In this document: positions 4,781 to 50,302 of the stretch, piece after piece
Position numbering within the stretch: the stretch's first letter is position 1
How the letters are laid out: each line of letters opens with the position of its first letter
Assembly: GCF_003351345.1 (NCBI RefSeq)
Contig: NZ_QQTO01000001.1
Span: forward strand, 62,001 to 126,000
Length of the DNA: 64,000 nt
From: Allobosea caraganae
GTDB taxonomy: Bacteria; Pseudomonadota; Alphaproteobacteria; Rhizobiales; Beijerinckiaceae
Reading direction: 5' to 3'
Notes under the pieces: generated by a model
Databases searched by the model: none
What the model saw: only the letters and a program-made list of their open reading frames with translations
What the model was told of the DNA's origin: nothing
Translations under genes and position numbers: made by a program

Positions 4781-4853
4781 GCCCCTGCCCGGCGAATTAC
4801 CTCTCGCGCAGCGCCGCCGACCCGGCGGCCCTTCTCTCGAAGCGAGACCGCGC

Positions 4854-6678: not shown

Positions 6679-6681
<3 letters not shown>
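6629..6681. repeat. Palindromic intergenic repeat, copy 2
   Basis: TAGAGCATGATG (6629-6640) and CATCATGCTCTA (6670-6681) are perfect 12-bp arms with the inner CCGAAAA ... TTTTCGG core. The outermost CTA at 6679-6681 is the stop codon (TAG) of the minus-strand GH3 gene, so the repeat reaches into the coding sequence. Confidence 0.8.
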
Positions 6682-9114
<2,433 letters not shown>

Positions 9115-9275
9115 TTCGATTGGGGTCGCCGGAGGCGGCGCGGGTGCAGGTCGAGGTGTTTGGCGCTCATTCCTTGACCCTTGTCTCGATGATAGGCATT
9201 TGTGCTCGTGCGCGCCGTCGCCAACGCAGGACGGGCGCGCCGCCCTGCCGTTCGAGCCTTTTTAGAGGAGCTTCT

Positions 9276-11009
9276 GTGAACTTGTCGACCCGTTCCGCGG
9301 CAGGGCTCTGCGATCAGGCCCGGCGCATTCCGGCCTGGCGTAGATTGGCTTCGGTTTGGTGCCGTTTGGCTCGGCGCAAGCCGGATTCGGCGCGCCTTCG
9401 CCCGGCTTTGGGCTGGCTGGCCGCCGGCGTCTTCGCGCTCGGCACGTCGGCGTTCGCGCAGGATCGGCCGACCGGCTTCGGGCTGGAGGAGGTGACGGCC
9501 AGGGCGAAGGCGCTGGCGGATGCGCCCTACGCCGCCCCGGTCAGCAACCTGCCCGACGTCTTCAGCAGGATGCAGTTCTCCGACTATCTGAAGCTGCAGC
9601 CCCGGCGCGACCGGTTCGCATGGGTGGAGCTCGACACGCCCTTTCAACTGGCTTTCTACCATCAGGGGATGCAGTTCAACACGCCGGTGAAGATCAACGA
9701 GATCGTCGACGGCGCCGTGCAGGAGATCCGCTACGATCCGGACCGCTTTGATTTCGGCGACCTGCGCTTCGACCGCAACCAGACCAGCAAACTCGGCTGG
9801 GCGGGGTTCCGGGTGACGTATCCGATCAACCAGCCCGGCAAGAACGACGAGATCATGAGCGTGCTGGGCGCGAGCTATTTCCGCGTCATCGGCAAGGGCC
9901 AGATCTACGGCCTGTCGGGGCGCGGGCTGGCCCTCGACACCGGCCTGCCGATCGCCGAGGAGTTTCCCGCCTTCCGCGAATTCTGGATTCGCCGCCCCGC
10001 GCCGCAGGACCGGTCGGTGACCTTCTATGCCCTGCTCGATTCGCCGCGCGCGTCGGGCGCCTACGAGTTCACCCTGACGCCCGGCGCTGAGACGCTGCTC
10101 GGCGTCAAGGCGCGCGTCTTCCTGCGTGCGGGCGCTACGCCGGCGGCGCTCGGCGTCGCGCCCTTGACCAGCATGTTCCTCTTCGGCCCCAACCAGCCCT
10201 CGCCGACCTATAACTTCCGCCCCGCGATCCATGACTCCAACGGGCTTGCGATCCACACGGGCAGTGGCGAATGGCTCTGGCGCCCCCTCAACAACCCTTC
10301 CATGGTGGCGACCAGCAACTTCGCGGCGGAGAATCCGAAGGGCTTCGGCCTGCTCCAGCGCGGCCGGGCCTTTTCGCGCTACGAGGATCTGAAGGACCGC
10401 TACGATCTGCGCCCCAGCGCCTGGATCGAGCCGACCAACGACTGGGGCAAGGGCCATGTGCGCCTCGTCGAGATCCCCACGGCCGACGAAACCAACGACA
10501 ACATCGTCGCCTTCTGGGCGCCGGACACGCTGCCGCCGCCCGGCCAGGCCATGCAGTTCGACTACCGCGTCCGCTGGACCATGGACGAGCCCGATATCCT
10601 GAAGGACGGCCTGTCCTACGTCTGGCAGACCATGCGCAGCACGGGCGAGGTCTATCAGTCCAACCTGATCCGCGCCTATGACGGCACGCTCGCCTTCCTG
10701 GTCGATTTCAAGGGCCCCTCGCTAGGCGATCTCGCGCCCGATGCGCCGGTCGCCGCGCGCGTCAGCGCCAACGACAATGTCGAGATCGTCGGAACGGAGC
10801 TTCAGCCCAACCCCGCCATCAAGGGCTGGCGCCTGACCTATCGGGTCAAGGTCAAGGATTCGACCGAGGCCTCCGAGCTGCGTGCTGCGCTGGAGCTGGG
10901 CGGACGCACGCTCACCGAAACCTGGAGCTTCCAGCTCCCGCCCTTGCCGGCCGCCAGGTCCGCCAAGGACAGAGAGCGCTATCTCAACCTCTTCAAGGCG
11001 ATCGAGTAG
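9276..11009 (+). CDS. opgG: Periplasmic glucan biosynthesis protein OpgG/MdoG
   Basis: A 577-residue OpgG/OpgD-type protein. The GTG at 9276 is chosen because AGAGGAG lies 5 bases upstream; an open frame reaching back to 9036 overlaps the GH3 gene and is not protein-like. A signal peptide ([15 protein letters not shown]) ends near residue 66. Then comes the beta-sandwich domain ([51 protein letters not shown]) and an Ig-like C-terminal part. The family is needed for osmoregulated periplasmic glucans, and some members were shown to be beta-1,2-glucanases (GH186). No opgH glucosyltransferase is visible nearby. Confidence 0.88.
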
Positions 11010-11039: not shown

Positions 11040-11430
11040 CGCAAACTCATGGACCGAGGCGGAATGCGCCTGGTGTCCGGGCGCGGTGATCAAGGTTTAC
11101 GGAACAGCGGCTTCGGCAACGGGCCGTCCCGTTGCCGGGACGGCTCGAGCTGCGCCCGCCGCAGTTGCGGGGGGAGGTCGACGCCGGAATGGCACTCGCC
11201 CGCCTCGTCAAACTCGCTCCTGCGCTTGTGGTGCGGCTGTCCGGCCGGCACTCCCGTGATCATGGGAGCAGGCGACGGGCGCGCGCCGGCCGATTGAACG
11301 CGACGACGAGGGGCTCGCTCGTTGCCCAGTTTTACACATTGGCGAGGGTCGACAGGATTGCGCCTGCGGACCCTGCTCGGCGAAGTCGTCCCAAGAGCGA
11401 AAATCAGAAAAGCTCTCCAGGGAGGATATC
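11040..11430. other. Intergenic region upstream of the sugar ABC operon; no supported gene
   Basis: About 390 bases between opgG and the binding-protein gene. Short open frames exist on both strands, but none has a ribosome site or a recognisable protein. The operon promoter should lie here. No sigma-54 -24/-12 promoter (TGGCAC-N5-TTGC) is found. Confidence 0.5.
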
Positions 11431-12660
11431 GTGCTGACAAGGTCAGGATTACTCGCGGCTGCGATCCTATGCGCCCTTACCGGCTCGGCAATCGCCCAGC
11501 CGAAGACGATCAGCCTGTGGCACCCGTTCACGCTTGAGACCGACATGATCTATGGCGGCATCAAGGCCTTCAACGAGTCGCATAGCGAATACCGCATCGA
11601 CCCGCGCATCGTGCCCGGGCCGCAAATGGATTCCGAGCTGATCAAGGCGATCGCCAGCGGCTCGGTGCCGGATCTGGTGACGCTCGACAACCCGGTCGTC
11701 GCCAGCTTCTCGGCGCAGGGCACGCTGACCGACCTGACCGAGCGCGTCGGGAAGTCGACGACCGTCAAGCCGGACCTCTACTTCAAGGGCCCCTGGGCCT
11801 CCGGCCTCTGGAAGCAGCGCATCTTCGCCGTGCCGCGCGACGCCAACACCCTGGCGCTCTGCTACAACGCCGACATGTTCAAGGCGAAGGGGCTCGATCC
11901 CGACAAGCCGCCGAAGACCTGGACCGAGCTGCTCGCCGCCGCCAAGGCGCTGAAGGACCCGGCCAAGAACGTCTACGGCTTCGGCTTCAGCGCCGTGCAG
12001 GCCGACGAGGGCGTGTTCCAGTTCCTGCCCTTCCTGCACCAGGCCGGCGGCGCGGTCGACAAGCTCGATGCGCCGGAGGCGACCGAGGCGCTCGAGTTCT
12101 GGGCCGGGATGGTCAAGGACGGCATCGCCTCGCGCGACGTCATCAACCAGCGCCAGTATGAGGTCACCAACACCTTCATGGCCGGCAATGCCGCGATGGT
12201 GATGTGCGGGCCGTGGGAGCTGCCGCGCCTGCAGAAGGAGGCGAAGTTCGAGTGGCGCCTCGCGCTGCTGCCGGTCAAGGCCGGCAAGGACATCGCCGCC
12301 TCCGCGCTCGGCGGCTATGACTGGGTCGTGCCCAAGGGCGCCAAGCAGGTCGACGGCGCCTTCCGCTTCATCGAGTTCATGTCGGACCCGAAGATCCTGA
12401 ACGAGGGCTGGAAGACCGGGCGGCTAGCGCCGCGCACCGACGTCACCGTCTCCGACCCGCTCTGGCCGCAAGCCTACGGCATCTACCGTAAGCAGCTCGA
12501 GAGCGCCCGGGCGCGGGGTCCGCACCCGCAATGGCCGGAAATCTCGCGCGCGATCCAGATCGCGATGCAGGAGGCGGTGACCGGCACCAAGCCGGCCGCG
12601 GCCGCGCTCGCCGACGCGGCGCGGAAGATCAAGCCGATCCTGGCCAAGACGCCGTTGTGA
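11431..12660 (+). CDS. Sugar ABC transporter periplasmic binding protein
   Basis: A 409-residue family 1 extracellular solute-binding protein. The GTG start has GGAGG eight bases upstream. The signal peptide (LLAAAILCALTGSAIA) is cleaved before QPKTISLWHPF. Typical features follow: GSVPDLVTLDN, FAVPRDANTLALCYNADMF, MAGNAAMVMCGPWELP and the C-terminal KILNEGW region. It should deliver a carbohydrate to the two permeases that follow. Its position at the head of a cluster with ThuA, Tm-1-like and PEP-hydrolase-type genes suggests the ligand is the substrate of that pathway. The ligand itself is unknown. Confidence 0.87.
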   Translation: MLTRSGLLAAAILCALTGSAIAQPKTISLWHPFTLETDMIYGGIKAFNESHSEYRIDPRIVPGPQMDSELIKAIASGSVPDLVTLDNPVVASFSAQGTLTDLTERVGKSTTVKPDLYFKGPWASGLWKQRIFAVPRDANTLALCYNADMFKAKGLDPDKPPKTWTELLAAAKALKDPAKNVYGFGFSAVQADEGVFQFLPFLHQAGGAVDKLDAPEATEALEFWAGMVKDGIASRDVINQRQYEVTNTFMAGNAAMVMCGPWELPRLQKEAKFEWRLALLPVKAGKDIAASALGGYDWVVPKGAKQVDGAFRFIEFMSDPKILNEGWKTGRLAPRTDVTVSDPLWPQAYGIYRKQLESARARGPHPQWPEISRAIQIAMQEAVTGTKPAAAALADAARKIKPILAKTPL

Positions 12661-12674
12661 TCTGACGCGAACGG

Positions 12675-12696
12675 GGAGCGGCCCACCCGCCGCTCC
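12675..12696 (+). promoter_or_regulatory. Intra-operon stem-loop after the binding-protein gene
   Basis: GGAGCGG (12675-12681) and CCGCTCC (12690-12696) form a 7-bp stem. It lies between the binding-protein gene and the permeases. Such stem-loops commonly stabilise or attenuate the message so that more binding protein than permease is made. Confidence 0.45.
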
Positions 12697-12748
12697 TGCC
12701 TGCTCAAGCCTTCTGCCTGCCCAAGCCGAATTCGGAGCGAAAAAGGAT

Positions 12749-13633
12749 ATGCCGGGATCACCCTCAGCGCTGCTCTATGTCTTCCTGGCGCTCCCGATCC
12801 TCTATCTCATCGGCTTCGTCGGCTTCCCGATCGCCTACAACCTGATGATGAGCGTGCAGGAGGTGAATCTCGGCAATATCACCGAGTTCATCCGGCCCTT
12901 CGTCGGGCTCGACAACTACCGCACCGTCCTGGCCGACGAGTCGTTCCAGAAGGTGCTGGTCAACACCTTGCTCTTCGTCGGCTGCAATGTCGTAGCCCAG
13001 GTCGGGATCGGGCTCGGCGTCGCCCTGTTCTTCGCCCAGGATTTCCCGGGAGCGGGCTTCATGCGCGGCCTCCTGCTCTGCTCCTGGATGCTGCCGGCGC
13101 TGGTCGTCGGTGCCCTGTGGAAATGGATCTTCGCCACCGAATACGGCGTCGCCAACTACGTGCTCTCGGCCCTGCACCTGGTCGGCTCGCCGATCCACTG
13201 GCTCTCGGACCCGACGGTGGCGCTGACCTCGGTGACATTAGCCAATATCTGGTTCGGCATGCCCTTCAGCATGATCCTGATCGCGGCGGCGCTCACCGCG
13301 ATCCCGAAGGAGCATTACGAGGCCGCCTCGCTCGACGGCGCCGGCAGCGCGGCGCGCTTCTGGTACATCACCTTGCCGGCGCTCAAGCCCGCGCTGCTCG
13401 CCGTCGCCTGCCTGGTGACGATCTACACGATGCGCGCCTTCGACCTGATCTTCGCGATGACGCAGGGCGGGCCGCTCGACGCCTCCAACGTGCTGCCGCT
13501 GCTCTCCTACCAGTTCTCGTTCAAGCAGTTCGACTTTGGCGTGGGCTCGGCTATGGGCTCCTTCGCCTTCCTGATCGTCTTCGGCGTGGCGCTGCTCTAC
13601 GTCCGCACGCTGAAGCAGGAGACGGCGTCATGA
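12749..13633 (+). CDS. Sugar ABC transporter permease (MalF/UgpA type)
   Basis: A 294-residue inner-membrane permease with about six transmembrane segments. The EAA loop that contacts the ATPase is visible as YEAASLDGAGSAARFWYITLP near residues 190-210. A conserved QGGPLDASNVLPLLSYQ block follows. Its stop overlaps the next permease start by four bases. It works with the binding protein encoded just upstream. No ATPase gene lies in this cluster, so energy must come from an ATPase encoded elsewhere. Confidence 0.9.
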   Translation: MPGSPSALLYVFLALPILYLIGFVGFPIAYNLMMSVQEVNLGNITEFIRPFVGLDNYRTVLADESFQKVLVNTLLFVGCNVVAQVGIGLGVALFFAQDFPGAGFMRGLLLCSWMLPALVVGALWKWIFATEYGVANYVLSALHLVGSPIHWLSDPTVALTSVTLANIWFGMPFSMILIAAALTAIPKEHYEAASLDGAGSAARFWYITLPALKPALLAVACLVTIYTMRAFDLIFAMTQGGPLDASNVLPLLSYQFSFKQFDFGVGSAMGSFAFLIVFGVALLYVRTLKQETAS

Positions 13634-14478
13634 GCGTCAGGCTCCGCCAGCTCGGCGTGCTGCCCTTCGGCGGCTGGCCGGCTACGGCCGTCGCCATCAT
13701 CGGCGTCTGCATCTACCTGTTCCCGATCTACTGGATGCTGATCTCCGGCCTGAAGGACTCGGCCGAGATCTTCGCCAACCCGCCGACCTTCGTGCCGCGG
13801 GCGCCCTCGCTCGCCGCGTTCGAATACGTCTTCGTGCGCGAGAACGTGCTGCGCTACCTGCGCAACAGCCTGACCATCGCGATCCCGGTCACGCTGCTGA
13901 CGCTCGTGCTCGGCTCGATGGGCGCCTATGCGATGAGCCGGCTGCGCAATCGCCTGGTCGATGTCGCGATCGTCGTCGTGCTGCTGCTCCAGGTTTTCCC
14001 GGAGGCGCTGCTGGCGACGCCGATGTTCATCATCTTCCGTTCGATCGACCTGCTCAACACCTTCGCCGCCGTCATCCTGGCGACGACCTCGAAGACGCTC
14101 GCCTTTGCCTTGGTGATCCTGCGGCCGATGTTCCGGCAGGTGCCGTTCGAGCTGGAGGAGGCCTCCTTCGTCGATGGCTGCACCAGGCTGCAGACCTTCC
14201 GGCTGGTCGTGCTGCCCTTGATGAAGGTGCCGCTGATCGTCGTCGGCACGCTCTGCTTCGTCCAGGCCTATGGCCAGTTCGTCTACGGGCTCACTCTGCT
14301 CAGCCAGCAGGAGCTGCAGCCGGCGACGGTCGGCATCTACAGCTTCGTCGGCGCCGAATATGCCGACTGGCACCGGGTCATGGCCTTCTCCTCGATCTTC
14401 GTGCTGCCGATCCTGGTGATCTTTTTGGCCATGCAGCGGCGCATCGTCTCCGGGCTGACCGCGGGGGCGCTGAAATGA
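13630..14478 (+). CDS. Sugar ABC transporter permease (MalG/UgpE type)
   Basis: A 282-residue inner-membrane permease starting at the ATGA overlap with the preceding gene. A long upstream open frame in the same register is only antisense-like noise. Six membrane segments are seen, and the EAA loop reads [22 protein letters not shown] near residues 177-198. The C-terminal [14 protein letters not shown] is the usual ending of this family. It pairs with the preceding permease as the membrane channel. The gene 31 bases downstream encodes ThuA, which supports a catabolic role for the imported sugar. Confidence 0.9.
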
Positions 14479-14509: not shown

Positions 14510-15232
14510 ATGCGCGTGACGGTGTGGAACGAGTTCCGGCACGAGAAATCGAACCCGGTGGTGTCCGGCATCTATCCGGACGGCATCCATGGCGCGATCG
14601 CGACCGGGCTCACCGAGAATGGCCTCGATCAGATCACGACCGCGACGCTGGATGAGCCCGAGCAGGGGCTTTCCGCCAAGCGCCTGGCCGAGACCGACGT
14701 ACTGGTCTGGTGGGGCCATCGCCACCATGACGAGGTCTCGGATGAACTGGCGGCGGCGGTCGCCGAGCGCGTCAATGCCGGGATGGGCCTCGTCGTGCTG
14801 CATTCCGGGCATTTCTCAAAAGTGTTCAAGCGGCTGATGGGCACGCCCTGCACCTTGCGTTGGCGCGCCGAGGGCGAGCTGGAGCGGCTCTGGGTGGTCG
14901 ATCCCGCCCATCCGGTCGCTGCCGGCATCCCGCCCTTCTTCGAGTTGGAGCGCGAGGAGATGTATGGCGAGCCGTTCGAGGTGCCGCCGCCGGACGAGCT
15001 CGTCTTCCTGAGCTGGTTCAAGGGCGGCGAGGCCTTTCGCAGCGGCTGCGGCTATCGGCGCGGGCGCGGGCGGATCTTCTACTTCCGGCCCGGCCACGAG
15101 ACCTTTCCGACCTATCACGACGCGACGATCCGCAAGGTCATCGCCAATGCCGTGCGCTGGGCGGCGCCGACGCTGATCGAGGCCGAGCCCTTCCAGAACC
15201 GGCGCATCATGCCGCCGCTCGAGCCGATCTGA
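14510..15232 (+). CDS. ThuA-like protein (trehalose utilisation / glutamine-amidotransferase fold)
   Basis: A 240-residue protein of the ThuA family, a class I glutamine-amidotransferase-like fold without the usual catalytic Cys. Seen motifs are [12 protein letters not shown] at the N terminus, [12 protein letters not shown] near residue 65, [16 protein letters not shown] near residue 92 and [15 protein letters not shown] near residue 190. The start is the ATG eight bases after TTGGAGG. ThuA of Sinorhizobium and Agrobacterium acts in catabolism of trehalose-type disaccharides through 3-keto sugars. Here it sits behind a sugar transporter and near a Gfo/Idh dehydrogenase, which fits oxidative sugar breakdown. 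The precise substrate is unknown. Confidence 0.85.
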
Positions 15233-15242
15233 GGGCGGCGCG

Positions 15243-16451
15243 ATGGGCAAGCGCATCTACGTCGCCGGGACGCTCGACACCAAGAGCGCCGAACTGGCCT
15301 ATGCCCGCGACGCCATCCAGGCCATGGGCGAGCAGGCGGTGATCGTCGATCTCTCGACGCAGCCGCATGGCCATGCCGCCGATATCAGCGCTGCCGAGGT
15401 TGCGGCGCACCATCCAGGTGGCGCCCAGGCTGTCTTTACGGGCGACCGTGGCACCGCGATCACGGCAATGACCGAGGCCTTCGCCCGCTTCCTGCCATCG
15501 CGGGACGATGTCGGCGGCGTGCTCGGGCTCGGCGGTTCGGGCGGTACGGCACTGGTTGCGCCGGCGTTTCGGGCGCTGCCGGTGGGAACGCCGAAGCTGC
15601 TGGTTTCGACCGTCGCCTCGGGCAACGTCGCCGGCTATGTCGGGCCGACCGACATCGCGATGATGTATTCGGTCACCGACATCGCTGGTCTCAACCGGAT
15701 CTCGCGGCTGGTCATCGCCAATGCCGCTCATGCCGTGGCGGGCATGGTGAAGGGCGCCGCGACGATCGCGCCATCCGCCGGGGACAAGCTCTCGATCGGC
15801 CTCACCATGTTCGGCGTCACCACGCCCTGCGTGAACCAGATGGTGGCAAATCTCTCCGATGACTTCGAGTGCTTCGTCTTCCACGCCACCGGCACGGGCG
15901 GACAATCGCTGGAGAAGCTGGTCGATTCCGGCCTGATCCATGCTGCGATCGATGCGACCACGACCGAGCTCTGCGACCTGCTGATGGGCGGTATCTTCCC
16001 CTGCACGGAGGATCGTCTCGGCGCCTTCGCCCGCACCGGCACGCCCTATGTCGGCAGCTGCGGGGCGCTCGACATGGTCAATTTCGGGCCGCCGGAGACC
16101 GTGCCGCAGCGCTATGCCGGCCGGCTGTTTTATCGCCACAACCCGCAGGTGACGCTGATGCGCACCACCCTGGAGGAGAACGCCCGCATGGGCGCGTGGC
16201 TTGGCGAGCGACTCAATCGCTGCAATGGCCCGGTGCGCTTCCTGATCCCCGAAGGCGGCGTCTCGCTGCTCGACATGCCGGGTCAGGCTTTCCACGATCC
16301 CGCCGCTGATGCGGCCTTGTTCGACGCGCTCGAACGCACGCTGAAACCGGGGCCGCGCCGCAAGCTGCTGCGCCTGCCCTACGCCATCAACGACCCTGCA
16401 TTCGCCGACGCGCTCGTCGCCCAGATGCATGAAGCCCTAGCAGAGGCCTGA
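15243..16451 (+). CDS. Tm-1-like ATP-binding (UPF0261) protein
   Basis: A 402-residue protein of the UPF0261/Tm-1-like family. The N terminus reads [16 protein letters not shown], followed by [24 protein letters not shown] (residues about 97-120), [22 protein letters not shown], and a C-terminal domain with [18 protein letters not shown] and [18 protein letters not shown]. Plant Tm-1, a virus-resistance protein, has the same ATP-binding N-terminal domain; the bacterial function is not established. The gene is followed after 3 bases by the PEP-hydrolase-family gene, and the two domains are often neighbours or fused, so they probably act in one step. Cytoplasmic. Confidence 0.85.
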
Positions 16452-16454
16452 GCC

Positions 16455-17294
16455 ATGCCCCCATTCCAGAGACAGCAACTGGTCGACCGCTTCCAGGACA
16501 TGGTCCGCCGCGGCGAGAAGATCGTCGGCGGCGGCGCCGGCACCGGGCTCTCGGCCAAATGCGAGGAGGAGGGCGGGATCGACCTCATCGTCATCTACAA
16601 TTCCGGCCGCTACCGCATGGCGGGCCGAGGCTCGCTCGCCGGCGTGCTCGCCTATGGCAATGCCAACGAGATCGTCGTGGACATGGCGCGCGAGGTGCTG
16701 CCGGTGGTCAAGCGCACGCCGGTGCTGGCCGGCGTCAACGGCACCGACCCGTTCTGCCTGTTCGACAGCTTCCTCGACGACCTCAAGCGCATGGGCTTCT
16801 CCGGGGTGCAGAACTTCCCCACGGTCGGGCTGATCGACGGCGTCTTTCGGGCCAATCTCGAAGAGACCGGCATGGGCTACGGCCATGAGGTCGAGATGAT
16901 CCGCATGGCGCGCTCGAAGGAGATGCTGACCACGCCCTATGTCTTCAACGAGGCCGAGGCAGTCGCGATGACCGAGGCGGGGGCCGATATCCTCGTCGCC
17001 CATATGGGCCTGACCGTCGGCGGCAATATCGGCGCCGAGACGGCCTTCAGCCTCGCCGATTGCGTGCCGAGGATCGACGCCATCGCGGCAGCGGCGCGGG
17101 CGGTGCGCGAGGACATCATCATCCTCTGCCATGGCGGGCCGATCTCCTCGCCCGACGACGCCCGCTACATCCTTTCGCAATGCCGCCACTGCCATGGCTT
17201 CTATGGCGCCAGCTCGATGGAGCGGCTGCCGACCGAGGCCTCGCTGACGGCGCAGACCCGCAGCTTCAAGGCGATCGCGAAGGCCGCCGAATAG
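16455..17294 (+). CDS. Phosphoenolpyruvate hydrolase family (TIM-barrel) protein
   Basis: A 279-residue TIM-barrel protein of the family named after a reported PEP hydrolase. Motifs in order: [13 protein letters not shown] (24-36), [19 protein letters not shown] (47-65), GVNGTDPF (94-101), [16 protein letters not shown] (116-131), [13 protein letters not shown] (177-189) and [11 protein letters not shown] (224-234). The true reaction of most members is untested. It is translationally close to the Tm-1-like gene. Two other copies of this fold lie within 6 kb: one fused to a regulator (17911-19692) and one shortened (21702-22307). This copy has the most complete motifs and is the likely enzyme. 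Confidence 0.85.
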
Positions 17295-17327
17295 ACGCGA
17301 AGCAAAAGACTTCTGGAGGAAATGGAA

Positions 17328-17771
17328 ATGGCGAAAGTCTATGTCAGCGGGATCATCGATGCGCCGGTCGACAAGGTCTGGGCCTATGCCCGCGACTTCA
17401 ACGGCCATGGCGAATGGCATCCGCTGATCGCCGAGAGCCATGTCGAGGACGGGCTGCCGAGTGACCGGGTCGGCTGCGTGCGCAATTTCACGCTGACCAA
17501 TGGCGGCCACCTGCGCGAGCGGCTGCTCTCCTTCAGCGACCTGGAGCGGCGCTTCACCTACAACATTATCGTCTCGCCGATGCCGATCGAGAACTACGTC
17601 GCGACCTTCGGCGTCAAGCCGGTCACCGAGGGGAACAAGACCTTCGTCGAGTGGATGGCGGAGTTCGATGTTTCCGCCGCCGATGAGGCCGACATCAAGG
17701 ACAAGGTCGGGCAGGGCACATTTGCGGAGGGCATCAAGGCGCTGGAAAAGGCGGTGAAGGCGCGAGGTTGA
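17328..17771 (+). CDS. SRPBCC family protein (polyketide-cyclase/START-like)
   Basis: A 147-residue protein with the helix-grip SRPBCC fold, which forms a hydrophobic ligand pocket. Seen are the N-terminal strand with IDAPVDKVWAYARDFNGHGEWHP and a C-terminal long helix (GTFAEGIKALEKAVKA). The start at 17328 is preferred over the ATG at 17322 because GGAGGA lies 7 bases before it. It is the last gene of the plus-strand run starting at 11431 and ends before a large palindrome. It may bind or convert an intermediate of the pathway; that role is inferred from position only. Confidence 0.8.
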   Translation: MAKVYVSGIIDAPVDKVWAYARDFNGHGEWHPLIAESHVEDGLPSDRVGCVRNFTLTNGGHLRERLLSFSDLERRFTYNIIVSPMPIENYVATFGVKPVTEGNKTFVEWMAEFDVSAADEADIKDKVGQGTFAEGIKALEKAVKARG

Positions 17772-17781
17772 CGGTCAGACT

Positions 17782-17903
17782 TCCCAGCCCTCATCCTGAG
17801 GAGCGCCGTAGGCGCGTCTCGAAGGATGCTCCAGCCATCTCCGGAGCCTCCTGGATCATCCTTCGAGACGCCGCTTCGCGGCTCCTCAGGATGAGGGCTG
17901 GGA
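17782..17903. repeat. Long palindromic repeat (122 bp) between convergent genes
   Basis: Perfect 23-bp outer arms (17782-17804 with 17881-17903; the arm contains CCTCATCCTGAGGAGC) and a second perfect 13-bp inner pair (CGTCTCGAAGGAT, 17815-17827 with 17858-17870). The element closely resembles a repeat common between genes in Bradyrhizobium/Bosea-like genomes. It separates the plus-strand operon from the minus-strand regulator and may end transcription from both sides. Confidence 0.85.
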
Positions 17904-17910
17904 GTTGAGC

Positions 17911-19692
17911 TCATTCTCCCTCGGGCGCCGCCATCGATTGCAGCCCGTAGGTGCGCATCTTGTTGTAGAGGGTCTTGCGCGAGATGCCGAGATACTCGGC
18001 CGTCTGGCTGCGGCGGAAGCGGTTGCGCTTCAGCCCGTGCAGGATCCACTCCTTCTCCGAACTGAAATTCCGCGCGGAGGAAGCGGCTTCGGCGCCGAGC
18101 GGTGGCAGATGCTGCTCCAGGATGACGCTGCCGGTGCAGGCCAGCACGGCCTGCTCCAGCACGGAATCGAGCTCGCGCAGGTTGCCCGGCCAGTGATGCG
18201 CGGCGAGCAGGCGGAAGGCAGCAGGGTCGAGGCTCTTGGGCTCGCTCTGCCGGCGCAGGCCGATCGTGCGCAGCGATTCATCGATCAGCGAGGGCAGGTC
18301 CTCGCTGCGCTCGCGCAGCGGCGGCAGCACGATCGTGAAGCAGCCGAGCCATTCGGCGAAGCGCGGATCGACCCGGCTGGGCGGGAGATGGCGCAGGTCC
18401 TCGCCAGCGATGGCAAGGAAGCGGACATTGAGCGGTGACGGCGTCTCGCTGCCATGGCGCCAGAACGAGCCGGCCTCGACTGCGTCCAACAGCGCCCGCT
18501 GCACCTCGAGCGGCATCTCGTCGGCATCGTCGAGCAGCAGCGAGGAGGAATGGACGATCTCGAGCCAGCCGAGCCGGTGCTTGACGGCGCTCGGGTGCAT
18601 CCCGGCCATGCAGCCGAACAGGTCGAGCTTGAGCCGTTCGGAGCCCTGGTTGGCGCAGGGCAGGCTGACCATGTCGCGCGCCTGCCGCGGCCCGAAGCGA
18701 TGCAGGGCGCGGGCGATCTCGCGCCGGCCGGTGCCGGCCTCGCCGGCGATGACGACGGGATAGTCGGTCGTGGTCAGCCGGTTGAACAATGCGCGCGCCG
18801 TCTCGGCCGCCTGCGAATGGCCCCAGAGCGGGCGGGGGAAACGGCGCGGGTTGAAGCGGCTGTCGAGACCGTCAGGCTGCTGGCGCGCCATGCCGATCGC
18901 CTTGAAGGCGGCGGTCACGACCTCGATCGCGCTCTCCGACGGCACGCGGTCGATGGTCGAGCCGCCGATATAACCGTCGACCCGGGCGATCTGGCAGAAC
19001 TCCTCCAGCTGCTTGGGGCTGACGATCGGACCGCCCTCGACGAGGCAGCGCGTCTTGCGCGAGACGGCGCGAACCTGCTGGGCGATGGCGTTGGCCATCA
19101 GCCCGGCATCCTCGACGCGCAGATGCGAAACGGCGCCGAGCACGCCGCCGACATTCCAGCCGAGGTCGATATTGACGATATCCGCGCCTTGCCTGGCGGC
19201 TTCAGTCGCCTCTTCGGCAGTATGGGTATAGGCCAGCGTCGAGAGCCCGCGCTCGCGCGCGACGCGCAGCAATTCGAGCTCGCGGCCGAAGCCGACGCCG
19301 CTGCGCTCGAGGAAGGCGCGGTACTGGCCGTCGATCAGGATCGAGGTCGGGAAATTGGCGATGCCGCTGAAGCCGGCCCTGGCGATGCGCTCGACGAGAT
19401 CGGCCAGATCAAGCCGCGGATCGAAGCTCGCCGCGCCGAAATAGACCGGTACGGTGGCGCGCGGCAGGATCTCCGAGCGGGCGAAGCTGAGCACGAACTC
19501 GTTGCTGTCGCGCAAGGGCAGCATGGCCGCGACCGAAGGCTCGCCGATGCAGCGCATCCGGCCGGCGCTGAGGGCAATGAGAAAGTCGGCGCCGCCGCGC
19601 GTCGCCGATTGGGCCGCCATGCCAGTGCCGATCGCGGCACCGACCATGAAGCGCGGCTGCTCCCGCTGGGAGCCCGAAAGGTCCGGCCCCAT
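17911..19692 (-). CDS. Regulator: PEP-hydrolase-like sensor + degenerate NtrC-type AAA+ + Fis HTH
   Basis: A 593-residue protein. Residues about 12-266 are a PEP-hydrolase-family TIM barrel (GAAIGTGMAAQ, GFSGIANFPTSILIDG, VEGGPIVSPKQ). Residues about 285-535 follow the sigma-54-activator AAA+ domain, and a Fis-type HTH (RRSQTAEYLGISRKTLYNK) ends the protein. Key AAA+ features are altered. Walker A reads GEAGTGRRE (Lys replaced by Arg), GAFTGA is replaced by GMHPSA, Walker B is LLLDDADEM, and the arginine-finger stretch is lost. So sigma-54 activation by ATP hydrolysis looks unlikely. The start at 19692 leaves the barrel complete and lies 20 bases after the upstream gene. It probably senses a ligand of the neighbouring pathway. 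Confidence 0.82.
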   Translation of the reverse strand: MGPDLSGSQREQPRFMVGAAIGTGMAAQSATRGGADFLIALSAGRMRCIGEPSVAAMLPLRDSNEFVLSFARSEILPRATVPVYFGAASFDPRLDLADLVERIARAGFSGIANFPTSILIDGQYRAFLERSGVGFGRELELLRVARERGLSTLAYTHTAEEATEAARQGADIVNIDLGWNVGGVLGAVSHLRVEDAGLMANAIAQQVRAVSRKTRCLVEGGPIVSPKQLEEFCQIARVDGYIGGSTIDRVPSESAIEVVTAAFKAIGMARQQPDGLDSRFNPRRFPRPLWGHSQAAETARALFNRLTTTDYPVVIAGEAGTGRREIARALHRFGPRQARDMVSLPCANQGSERLKLDLFGCMAGMHPSAVKHRLGWLEIVHSSSLLLDDADEMPLEVQRALLDAVEAGSFWRHGSETPSPLNVRFLAIAGEDLRHLPPSRVDPRFAEWLGCFTIVLPPLRERSEDLPSLIDESLRTIGLRRQSEPKSLDPAAFRLLAAHHWPGNLRELDSVLEQAVLACTGSVILEQHLPPLGAEAASSARNFSSEKEWILHGLKRNRFRRSQTAEYLGISRKTLYNKMRTYGLQSMAAPEGE

Positions 19693-19711
19693 CTGAGCCG
19701 GGGCCCTGACG

Positions 19712-20782
19712 CTACGACCCGTCGAAGGAGCGGATATAGTCCTGGACATCGATGGTCTTGCCGCTGCGCGCGCTCTCGATCCCCGCAAAGATCAGGGCAG
19801 CCGCGTGGAGGTTCGCCTCGACATGGGTCTCCATCTCGGCGCCGCCGTCAAGCCAGGTGCAGAATTTCTCGATGAGCCAGTTGTTCAGCCATTTCGGCTG
19901 GGTGATGAGCTGGATCTTCTGGCCCTGGCCTTCGCGGCAGCGCTGGCGCACGAGCTGGCTGCGCGAGAAGATCTCGATCTCGCGGTTGTTCAGGATCGCC
20001 GTGCCGAATTCGCCGTCGACGCGGACATATTCCTTCATCCAGTCGTTCAGGCCGACCGCCGCTGAGGACGAGCCCTCGTAGATGCCGCGCACGCCGTTCT
20101 GGAACACCATCATGACGATGCCGTCGGTGTCTCCCGCGTATTTCGCCCAGTCCGGCTTCCAGGTCGAAGCGGTCAGCGACTGGCACTGCGCCCCGGCGAA
20201 ATCGGCGACGAGGTCGAGATGGTGGACCGCGCCCTCGATCATCAGCGGGTCCATCATCGTGTGGCGGAAGAGGGCGCCCCAGGCGAGGTGCTCGCGCATG
20301 TCGGCGAAGTAGCGGCAGCTGACATTGTTGACCCGGCCGATCTGGCCGGCGCGAATGACCTGGCGCAGCGTCGTCTTGTCCTGGTCGAAGCGGTGGCTCA
20401 TCGTCACCGCCATCTTGCGCCCGGCGGCGCGGACCTTGCGGGCGATGCGGGCGCTGGCCGCCATCGTGTCGGCGATCGGCTTCTCGCAGAGGATGTCGAC
20501 ATTGTGCGCCAGCGCGATGTCGATCACCGCCTCATGGTAGCCGGGCGGCACGACGATCGTGCAGAAATCGACCTTATGGGCGGCAAAGGCGGCCTGGGGA
20601 TCGGTATAGCAGGCGGCTTCCGGCAGCTTCAGCGCCTTGCGGCCGAATTCGAGCGCCTTGGGGTCGATATCGACCAGCGCCACCACCTCGATCGTGCCGT
20701 CGGCGATGTTCGAGGCGAGGAACTCGGTGCACCAGCGCCGCCCGAAGGTGCCGACGCCGACATGGATGACCTTCTTCGTCAT
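19712..20782 (-). CDS. Gfo/Idh/MocA family NAD(P)-dependent sugar dehydrogenase
   Basis: A 356-residue oxidoreductase. The Rossmann dinucleotide motif GVGTFGRRW lies at residues about 9-17, the EKP motif (CEKPIAD) near residue 99, and the C-terminal alpha/beta substrate domain carries GAVHHLDLVADFAGA near residue 183 with the conserved His pair. Members oxidise or reduce sugars, inositols and sugar acids in the cytoplasm. It follows the cupin gene by 3 bases and precedes the regulator gene, so the three form one minus-strand operon. With ThuA nearby, a 3-keto-sugar type pathway is a reasonable guess but is not shown. Confidence 0.87.
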   Translation of the reverse strand: MTKKVIHVGVGTFGRRWCTEFLASNIADGTIEVVALVDIDPKALEFGRKALKLPEAACYTDPQAAFAAHKVDFCTIVVPPGYHEAVIDIALAHNVDILCEKPIADTMAASARIARKVRAAGRKMAVTMSHRFDQDKTTLRQVIRAGQIGRVNNVSCRYFADMREHLAWGALFRHTMMDPLMIEGAVHHLDLVADFAGAQCQSLTASTWKPDWAKYAGDTDGIVMMVFQNGVRGIYEGSSSAAVGLNDWMKEYVRVDGEFGTAILNNREIEIFSRSQLVRQRCREGQGQKIQLITQPKWLNNWLIEKFCTWLDGGAEMETHVEANLHAAALIFAGIESARSGKTIDVQDYIRSFDGS

Positions 20783-20785
20783 GGT

Positions 20786-21433
20786 TCAGATTCTCTCGGG
20801 CTGGGGCTGGGCAAGGCCGTGGGTGTGGTTCCAGAGATGGCCGACGCGCTTGCGGCCCTCGAGCGACGTCTCGAAATAGACGGCCTTCACCGGCTCGGAG
20901 ACGCTCGCCATGTCGTGATGATGGCCCATGCCGAGCGCGACGCAGTCGCCCGGCCCGCTGTCGAAGAAGCGGCCACCGACGACGACCGTGCCGCGGCCTT
21001 CGAGGACCAGCCAGTACTCGTCGCAATCGTGGTAATGGGAATCGACCCGGGTCGCCTTGGGGTAGGAGACCGGATCGCCGTTATTGGTGGCGTCGGGCTC
21101 ATGAGCGACGCGGAAGATGCCGCAGCCGGAGATATCCTCGCCCCAGCTGCCGCAAAGCCGCACGAGCTGCGTCTTGGCGCCGTGGCCGATCACGCTCCAG
21201 GCCGCGAAGCTCGGCTTGTCGTGAATGTCGAGAAACTGGCCTTCCTTCAGGATGACGGAGCCGCCCTGACCCATGATCTGAGCCGTGCCGCCGGTGCAGA
21301 GCAGGCGCTCCTTGGCGGTTGCCTGCTTGCGCGCGGCCGTCTGGTTCTCGGGAAGGTCGATGATTTCAAAGGAGCGAAGCGTGCACCAGGCCGGCGGCGC
21401 TTCAAGACTGCGGAAAAGCGACAAGATCGGCAC
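20786..21433 (-). CDS. Cupin domain protein
   Basis: A protein of about 215 residues with a clear C-terminal cupin barrel: DSHYHDCDEYWLVLEGRGTVVVGG gives the metal-binding H-x-H-x(3)-E pattern, then PGDCVALGMGHHHDM gives the second motif. An N-terminal half (GGSVILKEGQFLDI) may be a second, weaker cupin unit. The start is uncertain. A GTG at 21433 is shown; a TTG at 21421 has GAGGTG six bases upstream, and the open frame continues to 21598 with unconvincing sequence. It is the first gene of the operon with the Gfo/Idh and regulator genes. It could be a sugar isomerase or epimerase; not determined. Confidence 0.72.
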   Translation of the reverse strand: MPILSLFRSLEAPPAWCTLRSFEIIDLPENQTAARKQATAKERLLCTGGTAQIMGQGGSVILKEGQFLDIHDKPSFAAWSVIGHGAKTQLVRLCGSWGEDISGCGIFRVAHEPDATNNGDPVSYPKATRVDSHYHDCDEYWLVLEGRGTVVVGGRFFDSGPGDCVALGMGHHHDMASVSEPVKAVYFETSLEGRKRVGHLWNHTHGLAQPQPERI

Positions 21434-21701
21434 CTCGGAACGACATGAATGCCCGTCGAAGGTGAAAGGCAGCGGTCGTCGCGCCCGCGCGAGCCCGTCC
21501 TGGCAACCTCCCGGCGAAGATCCTGCCCGCGGCCTTGAGCGACCGAAGTGAATCTCCACGATCAGAATGACCGCGCCGCCCTCAGCCGAATAGGACAAAA
21601 CTGGGAATGGTGGGTAGAATTGGGAAAGCCGGGCGCCAGCAAGGACATCCGAGAATGGCGCGGGGCAGACCGGTCTGCAACCCCTGCCAAGGAGGAGCGC
21701 C

Positions 21702-22307
21702 GTGACCGATTCGACCTATGCAAAGCCGCAGCCGCTTCGGCGCATGCCGGGGGCGGCGAAGCTGCCTGCCCGGCAAGGCGAGCCGTCCCGGCCGTTCCGG
21801 ATCGTCGCCGGCACGGAGCAGGATTGGGAGGGCGTCGCGGCGGGCGAGCTTGTTCTGGTCTGTCCCTGGCTGGCGGGGCTCGACCCCGCGACCGGCCTGT
21901 GGCTTGGGGCGCTGCCGATCCATGACTGCAACGCCTTCATCGACGGCGACTGGAGGCTCGATGCCCCGGCGCAGCTGCGCGAGCGCTGCTATGTCGGGGT
22001 CTTCGCTCTGGATCGGCTGCGCTCCGGCCCGCAGATATTCGGCCCCTTGCGCGACAAGGGTGTTAGCCGGCTGATCAACCTGCCGAGCGTCAGCTTCTTC
22101 GATGGCGCGACCGCGCAGACCTTCGGCCGGCTCTCCTTCACCCTGGAGAGCGAGATTGCCTTCCTGGCGCAGGCACGGAGCCTCGGCTTCGGCACGGCCT
22201 TGTGCGCGCGTTCGGAGGCCGAGCCGGCGCTCGCGAGAATGGCGCAGTTCGACTTCGTGCTGCGCCATCGCGGTCCCGGGCATCCGCTGGCGATCGACGA
22301 GGCCTGA
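21702..22307 (+). CDS. Shortened PEP-hydrolase-family paralogue
   Basis: A 201-residue protein starting at a GTG with GGAGGA upstream. It aligns by eye to the middle of the PEP-hydrolase fold: VGVFALDRLRSGPQIFGPLRDKG, then VSRLINLPSVSFFDG (matching [16 protein letters not shown] of the 16455 gene) and LESEIAFLAQARSLGFGTALCARSEAEPALARM. The glycine-rich N-terminal loop, the VGGNIG loop and the HGGP motif are missing, so it is probably not catalytic. It is divergent from the cupin operon and convergent with the ABC permease gene. It may be a partner subunit or a binding protein; both ideas are inference. Confidence 0.65.
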   Translation: MTDSTYAKPQPLRRMPGAAKLPARQGEPSRPFRIVAGTEQDWEGVAAGELVLVCPWLAGLDPATGLWLGALPIHDCNAFIDGDWRLDAPAQLRERCYVGVFALDRLRSGPQIFGPLRDKGVSRLINLPSVSFFDGATAQTFGRLSFTLESEIAFLAQARSLGFGTALCARSEAEPALARMAQFDFVLRHRGPGHPLAIDEA

Positions 22308-22318
22308 ACGACTGGGCT

Positions 22319-23143
22319 TCAGCCCTTGACCGAGCCCATGGTCAGGCCGCGCACCAGGAAGCGTTGCATCACCACCGCGAAGAGCACGACCGGCGTCGAG
22401 ATGATGAAGGCGGCGGCGCCGATCGAGGGCCATTGCACGCCGTATTCGCTGCGGAAGGCGACCATGGCGAGCGGTGCCGTCGAGGCGAAGCTGTTGGTCA
22501 GCGCCAACGCGAACAGGAACTCGTTCCAGGCGGCGATGAAGACGAAGACGCCGGTCGCGACGATGCCGCTCGAGGTCAGCGGCAGCATGATCTTGAGGAA
22601 GACCTGCAGCTCCGAGCAGCCGTCGATGATCGCCGCCTCGCGGATCTCGCCCGGCACGTCGCAGAAGAAGCCGCGCAGCAGCCAGATCGCGAAGGGCAGG
22701 TTGAAGGTGGCGTAGAGCACGATCAGCACGCCATGGGTGTCGAGCACGCCGAGGCGCGAGGCGACGAGGTAGATCGGGATCAGGATGGCGATGCCCGGCA
22801 CCATGCGCACGATCAGGACGAAGAGCAGGAAGCCGGTGCCGCGGATCGGCAGATGCGCCAGTGCGAAGGCCGCGGGTGCCGCGACCGTCAGCACCACCGC
22901 CGTCGTCAGCGTCGAGACGATGATGCTGTTCAGCATGTAGGCGCGGAAGATGCTGTCGCCGAGCACGCTGCGGAAGCCCTCGAGCGTCGGCTCGAAGATG
23001 AAGCGCAGCGAGAGCGTGTCCACCGCCGAGCGGAAGCCGGTCAGCACCATCCAGGCATAGGGGAAGAGGTAGACGATGCCGAGCCCGAGGCAGAGCAGGC
23101 TGAGCAGCAGCCGCTTGGTGGAATGCGAGAGAGTGAGCGTCAT
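22319..23143 (-). CDS. Sugar ABC transporter permease (MalG type)
   Basis: A 274-residue permease with six membrane segments, starting at an ATGA overlap with the upstream permease. The EAA loop is IREAAIIDGCSELQVFLKIMLPL near residues 180-202, and the C terminus reads QRFLVRGLTMGSVKG. It is the last gene of a three-gene operon (binding protein, permease, permease) running leftward. No ATPase gene follows, so an ATPase from elsewhere must power it. The ligand is unknown. Its placement beside the PEP-hydrolase paralogue suggests it may feed the same pathway. Confidence 0.9.
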   Translation of the reverse strand: MTLTLSHSTKRLLLSLLCLGLGIVYLFPYAWMVLTGFRSAVDTLSLRFIFEPTLEGFRSVLGDSIFRAYMLNSIIVSTLTTAVVLTVAAPAAFALAHLPIRGTGFLLFVLIVRMVPGIAILIPIYLVASRLGVLDTHGVLIVLYATFNLPFAIWLLRGFFCDVPGEIREAAIIDGCSELQVFLKIMLPLTSSGIVATGVFVFIAAWNEFLFALALTNSFASTAPLAMVAFRSEYGVQWPSIGAAAFIISTPVVLFAVVMQRFLVRGLTMGSVKG

Positions 23144-24117
23144 GCCGGCCTCCGCGCGGTCCGGAACAGGTGCCTGAGCAGCGGCGCGCTGGTGATCAGC
23201 ACGATGACGACGAAGATCATCGCGATCGCGGTGGTCCGGCCCATGTCGAAGGATGAGAAGGCGATCTTGTAGGTGTAGACCGTGATCGTCGTCGTCGCCT
23301 CGCCGGGGCCGCCCTGGGTGAGCAGCCAGATCTTGTCGAAATCGTTCATCGTGGCGATGCCGCGGAAGGCGGCCGCGATCAGCATGTAGGGCACGAGATG
23401 GGGCAGGACGACGTAGCGGAAGCGCTGGAAGACGTTCGCCCCATCGACGCGGGCGGCATCCATCAGGTTGCTGTCGACCGATTGCAGCCCGGCCAGGATG
23501 ACCAGCATGAAGAACGGCGTGTTCTGCCAGGAATCCATGATCACCATGGCGAAGAAGGCGTGTTCCAGCCCGAGCCACGCAACCTTGCCGAAGCCCAGCG
23601 CCACCAGCACGGAATTCAGCACGCCCTGTTCCTGCTCGTAGAGCAGCTTCCAGAAGATCGCGATCACGGCAGGGGTGATCACCATCGGGATCAGCATGAT
23701 CGAGCGGAAAAACGAGGCGAAATGCAGCTCGTTGTCGAGCAGCAGCGCCAGCAGGGTGCCGAGCGTCAGGCTCAGCGTGACCGAGGTCAGCGTATAGAGC
23801 AGAGTGACCTTGACGGCCTGCCAGAAGGACGGCGCCCCAAGCACGTCGGTGTAGTTCTCGAGCCCGGCGCGGATAGTCTCGCTGCCGGGTTCGGTCAGCA
23901 CCCAATGGGTGGTGCTGGTCATCACCGCATAGATCATTGGCCCGAGATAGACGGTCGCGAGCATGATGACCGCGGGCGCCATGAACCAGTAGGGTTCGAG
24001 CGGCACCCGGGCGCGGCGGTGGATCGAGGCCTTGCGGGCTCCGGCCGGGAGCGAAGGCCCTCCGGCCGCGAGCATTTGCGAACTCGTCACGGCTGGCCGC
24101 TCACTGGATGTAGCCAC
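23140..24117 (-). CDS. Sugar ABC transporter permease (MalF type)
   Basis: A 325-residue inner-membrane permease. A cytoplasmic N-terminal tail of about 40 residues is followed by six membrane segments. The EAA-type loop reads LMDAARVDGANVFQRFRYVVLP near residues 227-248, and a QGGPGEATTTITVYTYK block lies near residue 280. The start overlaps the end of the binding-protein gene by 17 bases. The stop overlaps the next permease by four bases. Together these form the channel of a CUT1-type importer. Confidence 0.9.
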   Translation of the reverse strand: MATSSERPAVTSSQMLAAGGPSLPAGARKASIHRRARVPLEPYWFMAPAVIMLATVYLGPMIYAVMTSTTHWVLTEPGSETIRAGLENYTDVLGAPSFWQAVKVTLLYTLTSVTLSLTLGTLLALLLDNELHFASFFRSIMLIPMVITPAVIAIFWKLLYEQEQGVLNSVLVALGFGKVAWLGLEHAFFAMVIMDSWQNTPFFMLVILAGLQSVDSNLMDAARVDGANVFQRFRYVVLPHLVPYMLIAAAFRGIATMNDFDKIWLLTQGGPGEATTTITVYTYKIAFSSFDMGRTTAIAMIFVVIVLITSAPLLRHLFRTARRPA

Positions 24118-25417
24118 GGCGCTTGAGCAGCGTCGTCACGCGCTCCTGGAGGGCGGCCGCGCCTTGTTCAGGCGTCTTGGTGCCGGAGCAGACGGCATTG
24201 GCCTCGTCGTAGATTTGGATGTTGACCTGCTCGGCATCCTTGATCGGCGCATAGGTCGCGACATTGCCCTCCATCGCCTTCAGCACGGTCGGGAAGAAGG
24301 GAAACTTCTTGTTGGTGTCGGGATCGAGCAGCGCCGAGCGGCGTACCGGGGAAAGGCTGAGCAGCGCGGTCTGCTTGACGATCTCGGGCGAGGTGAACCA
24401 ACCGAGGAAGAGCTTGGCCGCGTCGAGATTGCGCGATTTCGACCCGACCGAGAGGCCCCAGCCGCCGAGCAACACCGTCTCGGGGGTGGGAGCATAGCCG
24501 ACCCCCTTGGCGATCTTCGATTTCGACGGGTCGTAGAGCGAGCCGACGCCGCCGGCCCACATGTAGCCCTGCGCGGCCTGTGCCGAGGAGACGCTGGCGA
24601 TCATCTCGGGAAAATCCCAGGTCAGGTTGCCGGGAGGGCTGATCGGAGCGAGCTGCTCCTTCATGTAGCGGAACGCCTCGACGCTGGCCTTGCTGTCGAG
24701 CAGCGGCTTGCCGGCCTGGTCGAAATACTGGCCGCCGAAGGAGTGGAACAGGGTGATCCAGACGCAGCAGGTCTGGATCGTCTTGCCGGCCGGCATGTTG
24801 TAGCCGAACTGGTCGCCCTGCTTCAGCTTCGCACCGTTCTCGACGAGCTGCTTCCAGGTCGCCGGACCCTGTTCGGGATCGAGCCCGGCCTTCTGATAGG
24901 CCTCCTTGTTCCAGACGGTGAAGGAGGTGTCGCCGTTGATCGGGACGGTGGCGAGCTTGTCTCCGACCTTGGAATAGGCCGCCAGCGCACGCGGCGCGTA
25001 GTCGTCCCAGTTCATCGGCGGGATGCCGGCGACTTCCTTGTCCATGTTGGTGTGGTCGATGACGAAGGGAGCGACCTGCTCCTTCCACTGGTAGGCGACC
25101 AGGTAGACGTCGAAGGAGTTGGTGTTGGTCGTCGTGTCGAGCACCATCTTCTGGTAGCGCTCGGCGGTCGGCAGGGCCGAGAACTCGACATTGATGCCGC
25201 TGGCCGCGGTGAACTCCTTGGCGACCTCGGCCGAGCCGACATAGGCCGGCGTATTGCCCCAGATCACCTTCACCGTCTTGCCGGCATGGGTGCGGGGCAG
25301 GTTGCGCGTGGCTGCTGCTGCTGCGGCCTGCGCGGAGCAGTGCTGCACGAGGGCGCTGTACGAGGCGCCGGTCGCAAGGGCGCCCAGCGTGAATTGGCGG
25401 CGCGAAAGCCCCATCAT
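24101..25417 (-). CDS. Sugar ABC transporter binding protein, Tat-exported
   Basis: A 438-residue family 1 solute-binding protein. The N terminus MMGLSRRQFTLGALATG is a Tat signal, so it is exported folded. Mature features include VKVIWGNTPAYVGSAEVAKEF, YLVAYQWKEQV, TSFTVWNKEAYQKAGLDP and a conserved WAGGVGSLYDPSKS loop. It heads the operon with the two permeases at 22319-24117. Tat export is frequent for binding proteins of this order. The ligand cannot be read from the sequence. Confidence 0.88.
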   Translation of the reverse strand: MMGLSRRQFTLGALATGASYSALVQHCSAQAAAAAATRNLPRTHAGKTVKVIWGNTPAYVGSAEVAKEFTAASGINVEFSALPTAERYQKMVLDTTTNTNSFDVYLVAYQWKEQVAPFVIDHTNMDKEVAGIPPMNWDDYAPRALAAYSKVGDKLATVPINGDTSFTVWNKEAYQKAGLDPEQGPATWKQLVENGAKLKQGDQFGYNMPAGKTIQTCCVWITLFHSFGGQYFDQAGKPLLDSKASVEAFRYMKEQLAPISPPGNLTWDFPEMIASVSSAQAAQGYMWAGGVGSLYDPSKSKIAKGVGYAPTPETVLLGGWGLSVGSKSRNLDAAKLFLGWFTSPEIVKQTALLSLSPVRRSALLDPDTNKKFPFFPTVLKAMEGNVATYAPIKDAEQVNIQIYDEANAVCSGTKTPEQGAAALQERVTTLLKRRGYIQ

Positions 25418-25631
25418 TGTCGATCCTCCCAGGTGATTTTCTTTGTTGGGGGAAGGACAGCAGATCGACTATGCGGCCTCAATTGCCTTGTCGGGGCACG
25501 CTGAGTAATTGTGGGTAACCTCAATCAGATCGCCCAGGGAGGTCTGCTTTCGGGCAGGCTTCGAGCTTCTGCTCTTGTAGCGGCGGACGATTGCACGCAG
25601 ACGCCTGCGCCGCACGCTCGCCGACATTGTC

Positions 25632-48563: not shown

Positions 48564-48661
48564 GTTTTTCGACTGCAGCTTGAGGCCCAGGCGGTCTTAT
48601 TCTCCAAAAGGCAGCGGCCCGCCCAGATTTGCTGTTTAACAACGAGCGCGCGGAATACGTC

Positions 48662-49787: not shown

Positions 49788-49790
49788 CGC

Positions 49791-50273: not shown

Positions 50274-50302
50274 TCCGCCGAACATAGTTTCCATAGCGGT
50301 CC

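Follow-up and report, generated by a model that had tools for sequence, protein, structure and literature searches.

A catabolic locus of Allobosea caraganae whose regulator may sense through a disabled paralogue of a pathway enzyme

Why would a single catabolic locus encode one barrel fold three times over? The question is raised by a stretch of the Allobosea caraganae genome (64,000 nucleotides, here called the window) in which, between two importers of carbohydrate type, the PF09370 ("PEP hydrolase") family is present in three forms: a free protein (16455), the sensor domain of a regulator (17911) and a short divergent protein (21702), referred to below as S. Comparison with related loci makes it reasonably probable, in our judgement, that this is a catabolic regulon in which the regulator's sensor is a catalytically dead paralogue of one of the pathway's enzymes, and in which a second dead paralogue, S, serves the regulator. 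One enzyme shape appears to be used thrice: it works as an enzyme, sits in disabled form on a gene switch, and accompanies that switch as a second, small and likewise disabled copy.

One barrel family in three forms

The presumed active enzyme is the free barrel (16455..17294, + strand), which scores 434.4 bits against PF09370 (cut-off 33.8), is a close relative of the solved structure 2p10 (422 bits) and has the residues K35, H183, H226 and E256. The regulator (17911..19692, - strand) joins a PF09370 domain, the sensor barrel at 18883-19656 and above the same cut-off at 249 bits, to a Sigma54_activat AAA+ domain (95.7 bits), AAA_lid_14 (67 bits) and a Fis helix-turn-helix (HTH; 43.3 bits); its longest frame reaches 19788, but its start is probably the ATG at 19692, with an identical N-terminus in the same-genus loci L033 and L036. 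S (21702..22307, + strand) is a short, degenerate barrel that reaches 31.2 bits (E 1.6e-7), under the Pfam cut-off, and matches profile positions 56-178 only.

Residues, numbered by the window's free enzyme, were compared between 82 free proteins and 92 sensors, new free-type matches below 300 bits having been dropped before counting. H183 and H226 are each found in 82/82 free enzymes and in none of the 92 sensors, K35 in 81/82 free enzymes against 5/92 sensors, and E256 in 82/82 against 1/92, Asp being present in 91. Six residues (D43, R54, P122, E145, S253 and R257) are invariant in all 92 sensors, and N120 (91/92), N71 (90/92) and D98 (82/92) are nearly so. This pattern suggests a catalytic role for the lost residues and a pocket-lining one for those retained; the sensor has the look of an inactivated enzyme in which ligand binding persists.

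A tree was built from 124 domains on 121 columns; the columns are few, and several short forms are long branches. In it, all 66 short forms lie on one side of a single branch (100/97) and all 33 sensors likewise on one side of another (100/98). Sensors and short forms are each a single clade, spanning many families, and are therefore ancient; an origin of either within this locus is ruled out by the tree. All three forms occur together in 7 of 61 related genomes, which are exactly those with the fusion, and because they recur together the pattern is not a matter of chance. An earlier sequence-only reading of this DNA had claimed one fold in three architectures, and both the tree and, for the short form, the fold bear this out; an assignment of the three proteins to unrelated families, the outcome that could have spoken against it, did not materialise. 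Its further idea, that the enzyme fold was copied for sensing, stands in part: the sensor clade, the retained pocket-type residues and the loss of both histidines in every sensor speak for it, but the copying is ancient and not local to the locus.

The known proteins nearest to the window's free protein are 2p10 (Mll9387) and, in plants, the barrel half of Tm-1-like proteins; the free protein's gene adjoins a UPF0261 gene, which parallels the fusion of the two halves in plants. The sensor and the short form differ from them as separate ancient branches without the enzyme's two histidines. The name "PEP hydrolase" is a family name only, 2p10 itself being titled 'putative' (phosphoenolpyruvate/phosphonopyruvate hydrolysis). 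UPF0261/Tm-1-like proteins may bind nucleotides, as the database name 'Tm-1-like ATP-binding' suggests, and an earlier Pfam description presented PF09370 as a barrel for signal transduction found on sigma-54 regulators. Literature searches, mostly at the level of listings, found no reaction or function for bacterial UPF0261 or PF09370 and no bacterial enhancer-binding protein (bEBP) with a barrel sensor. Yang et al. 2016 (PMC5028733) describe UPF0261 and barrel proteins as present in many bacteria, as co-evolving, and as fused in plants; a regulator built on a dead enzyme would make such families of unknown function testable.

A companion of the regulator

The homology of the window's S to the family rests on its E value, its fold, the tree and relatives such as the short form of genome G051 (68.7 bits). 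Its AlphaFold model (pLDDT 82) has six PDB matches at E <= 0.001, all of them 2p10 chains (TMq 0.54-0.61), and the model of the S protein of locus L049 (pLDDT 90, eight strands) has 81, the best six being 2p10 (TMq 0.75-0.78); the window's S seems to have lost a barrel end that other S proteins keep. Equivalents of N71, D98, N120, P122 and E145 are kept in 87-89 of 89 S proteins, while the first strands and last motifs are not alignable to the enzyme. The Bradyrhizobium S proteins score 124-165 bits with a profile made from S and at most about 23 with enzyme or sensor profiles. The S gene starts with GTG, preceded by aaggaggagcgcc. An open reading frame (ORF) on the opposite strand (21582-22433, -) was rejected, as it is without a Pfam family and has stops in 3 of 4 orthologues.

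The distribution of S follows that of the regulator. An S profile (A1) was built from 23 S proteins, without two fragments of the broken L057 regulator, and searched against 397 genomes of the order. Among the matches listed, 18 genomes score 152-251 bits, the next best match being a full-length free protein at 105.6 bits, and these 18 are the ones with an intact regulator fusion among the matches listed; both lists are truncated at their weak ends only. A sensor-profile search of nine genomes with extra or odd matches found none with a further intact fusion, as judged by frame length. The S profile was trained on such loci, and a better test is given by loci retrieved solely through the sensor domain: of 80 such loci, 77 have S. 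After 11 of those 80 had been dropped as duplicates before counting, S lies beside the regulator in 89 of 92 non-redundant loci; in the other three (L071, L072 and L120) the place is cut by contig ends, and the S of L097 is partial. The two genes are convergent in 69 loci (61 of these pairs within 50 nt), divergent in 18 and on the same strand in two (L037 and L055).

Partial distance correlations were calculated for 44 thinned loci with all four genes (of 74); the distances are crude, and the locus can move as a block. S and the regulator correlate at 0.52, S and the enzyme at 0.11 and S and UPF0261 at -0.03, the remaining values including 0.94 for enzyme and UPF0261 and -0.33 for regulator and enzyme. 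S co-varies with the regulator and hardly with the enzyme, and is best seen as the regulator's conserved companion rather than a leftover, a point missing from the earlier reading, as were the repeat element and the sigma-54 history described below. Dedicated partner proteins exist for other bEBPs, as in NifA-NifL and PspF-PspA. As in those systems, a partner protein would control the regulator; S differs from those partners in being a paralogue of the regulator's own sensor domain.

The L057 locus has a regulator with internal stop codons (4808-5937; genome G207) beside intact-looking Gfo/Idh and cupin neighbours, with no S-grade match in the genome.

Control elements and a possible mechanism

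The window's regulator is without the GAFTGA loop, and its Walker A motif reads GEAGTGRR, with Arg replacing Lys. GAFTGA is present in 17 of 92 regulators; all 17 have the Walker A lysine (G..G.GK), against 31 of the 75 others. The GAFTGA type is represented, for instance, by L049/L099 of Pleomorphomonas. Promoters of the -24/-12 type were sought with a graded score, a site being a score of at least 10, and with random windows as control. The strict sigma-54 pattern, which the graded score replaced, had given only 7 sites (3 in the 17 GAFTGA loci, 4 in the 75 others). By the graded score a site is found in the S 5' region of 17/17 GAFTGA loci and of 0/71 others, namely the window and 70 further GAFTGA-less loci (random windows 6.7% and 3.7%). 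All 17 sites read away from S; the next gene downstream encodes UPF0261 in 14 cases and a LIV-type permease in the other 3. On a tree of 49 thinned sensors, GAFTGA and the promoter change once each, and the contrast therefore represents a single event for which no statistics are possible. For the window's importer promoters, where the strict pattern only was applied, there is one match (9076-9091); it lies inside an upstream gene, and the scanned part ends about 350 nt beyond it on the side of SBP1, the solute-binding protein of importer 1.

Sigma-54-dependent bEBPs and the window's regulator share the Sigma54_activat AAA+ and Fis HTH domains, and the 17 relatives keep GAFTGA beside a sigma-54 promoter. 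The window's regulator differs in being without GAFTGA and the Walker A lysine, with no -24/-12 promoter found at S. A published account (PMC10274813) reports GAFTGA-less bEBPs (Rhodobacter capsulatus NtrC, Caulobacter NtrC and VspR) as active at sigma-70 promoters. The window's regulator shares the missing GAFTGA with NtrC and VspR; however, NtrC has a receiver domain where the regulator has an enzyme-derived barrel, and sigma-70 action here would be by analogy. The sigma-54 difference can be traced at both the protein and the promoter level.

A second element at the S gene is a direct repeat. The divergent cupin and S genes of the window are separated by a region with three boxes in phase, TGGGAA / TGGGTA / TGGGAA (21602..21626, + strand). 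A three-box operator score separated poorly (41% of GAFTGA and 24% of other loci exceed the 99th percentile of the control), and a two-box form was used instead. For this form, 88 promoter regions were available, that is, the 92 loci minus L071, L072 and L120, which are without S, and L097, where the region is cut to 70 nt. TGGGTA-N4-TGGGTA is present within 2 mismatches in 74 of the 88 S 5' regions (33 perfect, 34 with one mismatch, 7 with two), comprising 13/17 GAFTGA loci and 61/71 others, against a background of about 0.02 per region from the remainder of the same loci; many of the outside matches are near UPF0261 or transporter genes by coordinates. The motif was derived from the counted loci, so that only its uniqueness in the genome and the importer sites are partly independent of them. 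The window's own genome (6.17 Mb) has a single TGGGWA-N4-TGGGWA, at window 21611-21626, and the reversed control has zero matches.

When up to 2 mismatches are allowed, three sites lie in the 64-kb window, one between the cupin and S genes and one before each importer. The site before importer 1 (TGTGTAAAACTGGGCA, 11323..11338, - strand, 2 mismatches) is 93 nt from the start of SBP1; importer 1 consists of SBP1 and two permeases of carbohydrate type (11431..14478, + strand) and runs in the same direction as the enzyme genes. The site before importer 2 (TGAGTAATTGTGGGTA, 25502..25517, + strand, 1 mismatch) is 85 nt from the start of SBP2, the solute-binding protein encoded with two permeases, likewise of carbohydrate type, at 22319..25417 (- strand). 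Shuffled windows have a mean of 0.62 sites, and 2 of 100 reach three. Both importer sites are conserved islands in alignments of 5 (SBP1) and 4 (SBP2) same-genus sequences; at S the flanks of the repeat are conserved too. We infer that the regulator binds these repeats. Layout and element are not universal, in that S was also observed without a close TGGGTA repeat 5' or on the regulator's strand (L056 at 8757, L037 and L055).

In the mechanism we propose, the importers would bring in a carbohydrate-like compound, the UPF0261 protein and the free barrel would act on a metabolite derived from it, and that metabolite or a close relative would bind the dead sensor barrel. S would pair with the sensor barrel and set its threshold, as anti-activator or co-sensor, and the regulator would bind the TGGGTA repeats through its Fis HTH. 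Regulators of the GAFTGA type would activate sigma-54 RNA polymerase; in the window's lineage the regulator would act on ordinary promoters, as GAFTGA-less NtrC proteins do. The more specific proposal of a two-barrel module, in which the dead sensor barrel and S assemble, jointly read the metabolite of the live barrel and act through the repeats, with the window's lineage free of sigma-54, we consider evenly poised between right and wrong. The inducer of a regulator carrying a dead copy should resemble the substrate of the enzyme, and the repeat element would bound the pathway. One barrel split into catalyst, sensor and partner, with residue signatures in about 90 loci, would be a clean natural case of an enzyme turned sensor.

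Several observations weigh against a regulon of this kind. D98 is kept in only 82 of 92 sensors and K35 is retained in five; the 18 divergent and two same-strand S genes mean that no single layout links S and regulator; the partial correlation of regulator and UPF0261 is also sizeable (0.45); and the sigma-54 contrast is a single evolutionary event. The repeat is absent at S within 2 mismatches from 14 of 88 loci, in a count whose motif came from these same loci, and the relatives' LIV-type importers, described below, mean that the sugar reading may not extend to them. The repeats could also belong to another regulator, the fusion protein controlling something else: binding of the repeats by this regulator is inferred only, and the weaker importer copies could be chance, given the shuffled windows. 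We nevertheless give this little credence, as the element stands beside this regulator's own S gene in 74 of 88 loci and, in the listed sequences of GAFTGA-type loci, lies upstream of sigma-54 promoters in the manner of an enhancer.

Other roles for S itself also have to be considered. Without touching the sensor barrel, S could bind the metabolite as a free buffer or decoy, or could be a regulator in its own right. The pocket-type residues kept in S and the position of the S gene at the repeat element speak for this; against it, the presence of S beside a single type of regulator in 89 of 92 loci is more easily explained by direct contact, and S has no DNA-binding domain by Pfam. On balance we regard this explanation as unlikely. 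A role for S as a chaperone or non-catalytic subunit, be it of the free barrel enzyme or of UPF0261, is quite improbable, even though S is a homologue of the enzyme and retains four residues conserved there. Such a role is disfavoured both by the 397-genome search, in which PF09370 matches are found in 117 genomes (among the matches listed) and S only in the 18 with an intact fusion, and by the partial correlations given above. Finally, the shortness of the window's S, its score under the Pfam cut-off and its faster evolution (dN/dS against four same-genus orthologues 0.16-0.37, compared with 0.05-0.18 for the enzyme) might suggest a decaying, pseudogene-like remnant. That is very improbable indeed, with S forming one clade, kept in nearly all loci, at dN/dS well below 1 and with an eight-stranded model for the L049 protein.

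Pathway genes and surroundings

The remaining genes of the locus agree in identity, by Pfam, with the list given in the sequence-only reading. Downstream of importer 1 on the + strand are a ThuA-family protein (14510..15232; PF06283, 122.6 bits; longest frame from 14495, start probably the ATG at 14510), the UPF0261/Tm-1-like protein (15243..16451; both Pfam halves, 290.1 and 205 bits against a cut-off of 27; Tm-1 structures 3wry and 3wrw) and, beyond the free barrel, an SRPBCC (Polyketide_cyc2) protein (17322..17771; 90.9 bits). A Gfo/Idh/MocA dehydrogenase (19712..20782) and a cupin protein (20786..21433; longest frame reaching 21598) are on the - strand with the regulator. NCBIfam names no function for the Gfo/Idh protein (best 78.5 bits, cut-off 355), for either binding protein or for S.

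The locus is kept in five genomes of one genus, the four others (L033-L036) having 71-99% identity per gene, with the SBP2 of L033 running off the stretch. Acuticoccus (L046/L077) and one metagenome-assembled genome (L064) keep SBP1, ThuA, UPF0261, the free barrel, SRPBCC, the regulator, Gfo/Idh and cupin, Microvirga (L065) has the same set minus SBP1 and ThuA, and Chelatococcus (L063) lacks intact UPF0261 and free-barrel genes within the stretch. The neighbours are thus kept together in related genomes, and the lack of such conservation that could have told against the earlier reading was not encountered. Across 108 comparison loci (11 of them duplicates), with a match covering >60% of the window protein, a PF09370 protein is found in 108, the query also matching sensor domains, the regulator in 101, UPF0261 in 92, SRPBCC in 51, Gfo/Idh in 22, cupin in 21 and ThuA in 9. 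In many relatives the same enzymes and regulator are paired with LIV-type importers. The carbohydrate-type importers, Gfo/Idh, ThuA, cupin and the sites before the importers suggest that the window's pathway acts on a sugar derivative, and the loci with LIV-type importers suggest that the shared step is not limited to a single class of substrate.

The genome's further full PF09370 protein lies elsewhere (C37), on a stretch that also encodes a LIV-type binding protein and a UPF0261 protein fused to an ABC ATPase. The fusion of UPF0261 to an ABC-transporter ATPase was observed in L039 (6662-8875, by Pfam), the locus of this second copy, and in L056 (14606-16984, by length and homology), each adjoining a LIV-type importer and a PF09370 gene.

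Upstream of importer 1 are genes for a glycoside hydrolase family 3 protein and an MdoG periplasmic glucan protein (window 6679-11009), and adjoining importer 2 is a molybdenum subunit of xanthine-dehydrogenase type (25632-27983); similar FAD, Fe-S and molybdenum subunit genes follow the genome's second PF09370 copy in L039 (13739-17864). Further along, at window 48001-60000, G+C falls to 0.55-0.62 (elsewhere 0.65-0.70). The fall is beside a tRNA-Ala gene (58628-58703, - strand), and the stretch encodes a DUF3987 protein (50303-51388), a protein of DNA methylase/Mrr type (56183-57226) and the products of three longer ORFs that match no Pfam family; it is possibly an integrated element.

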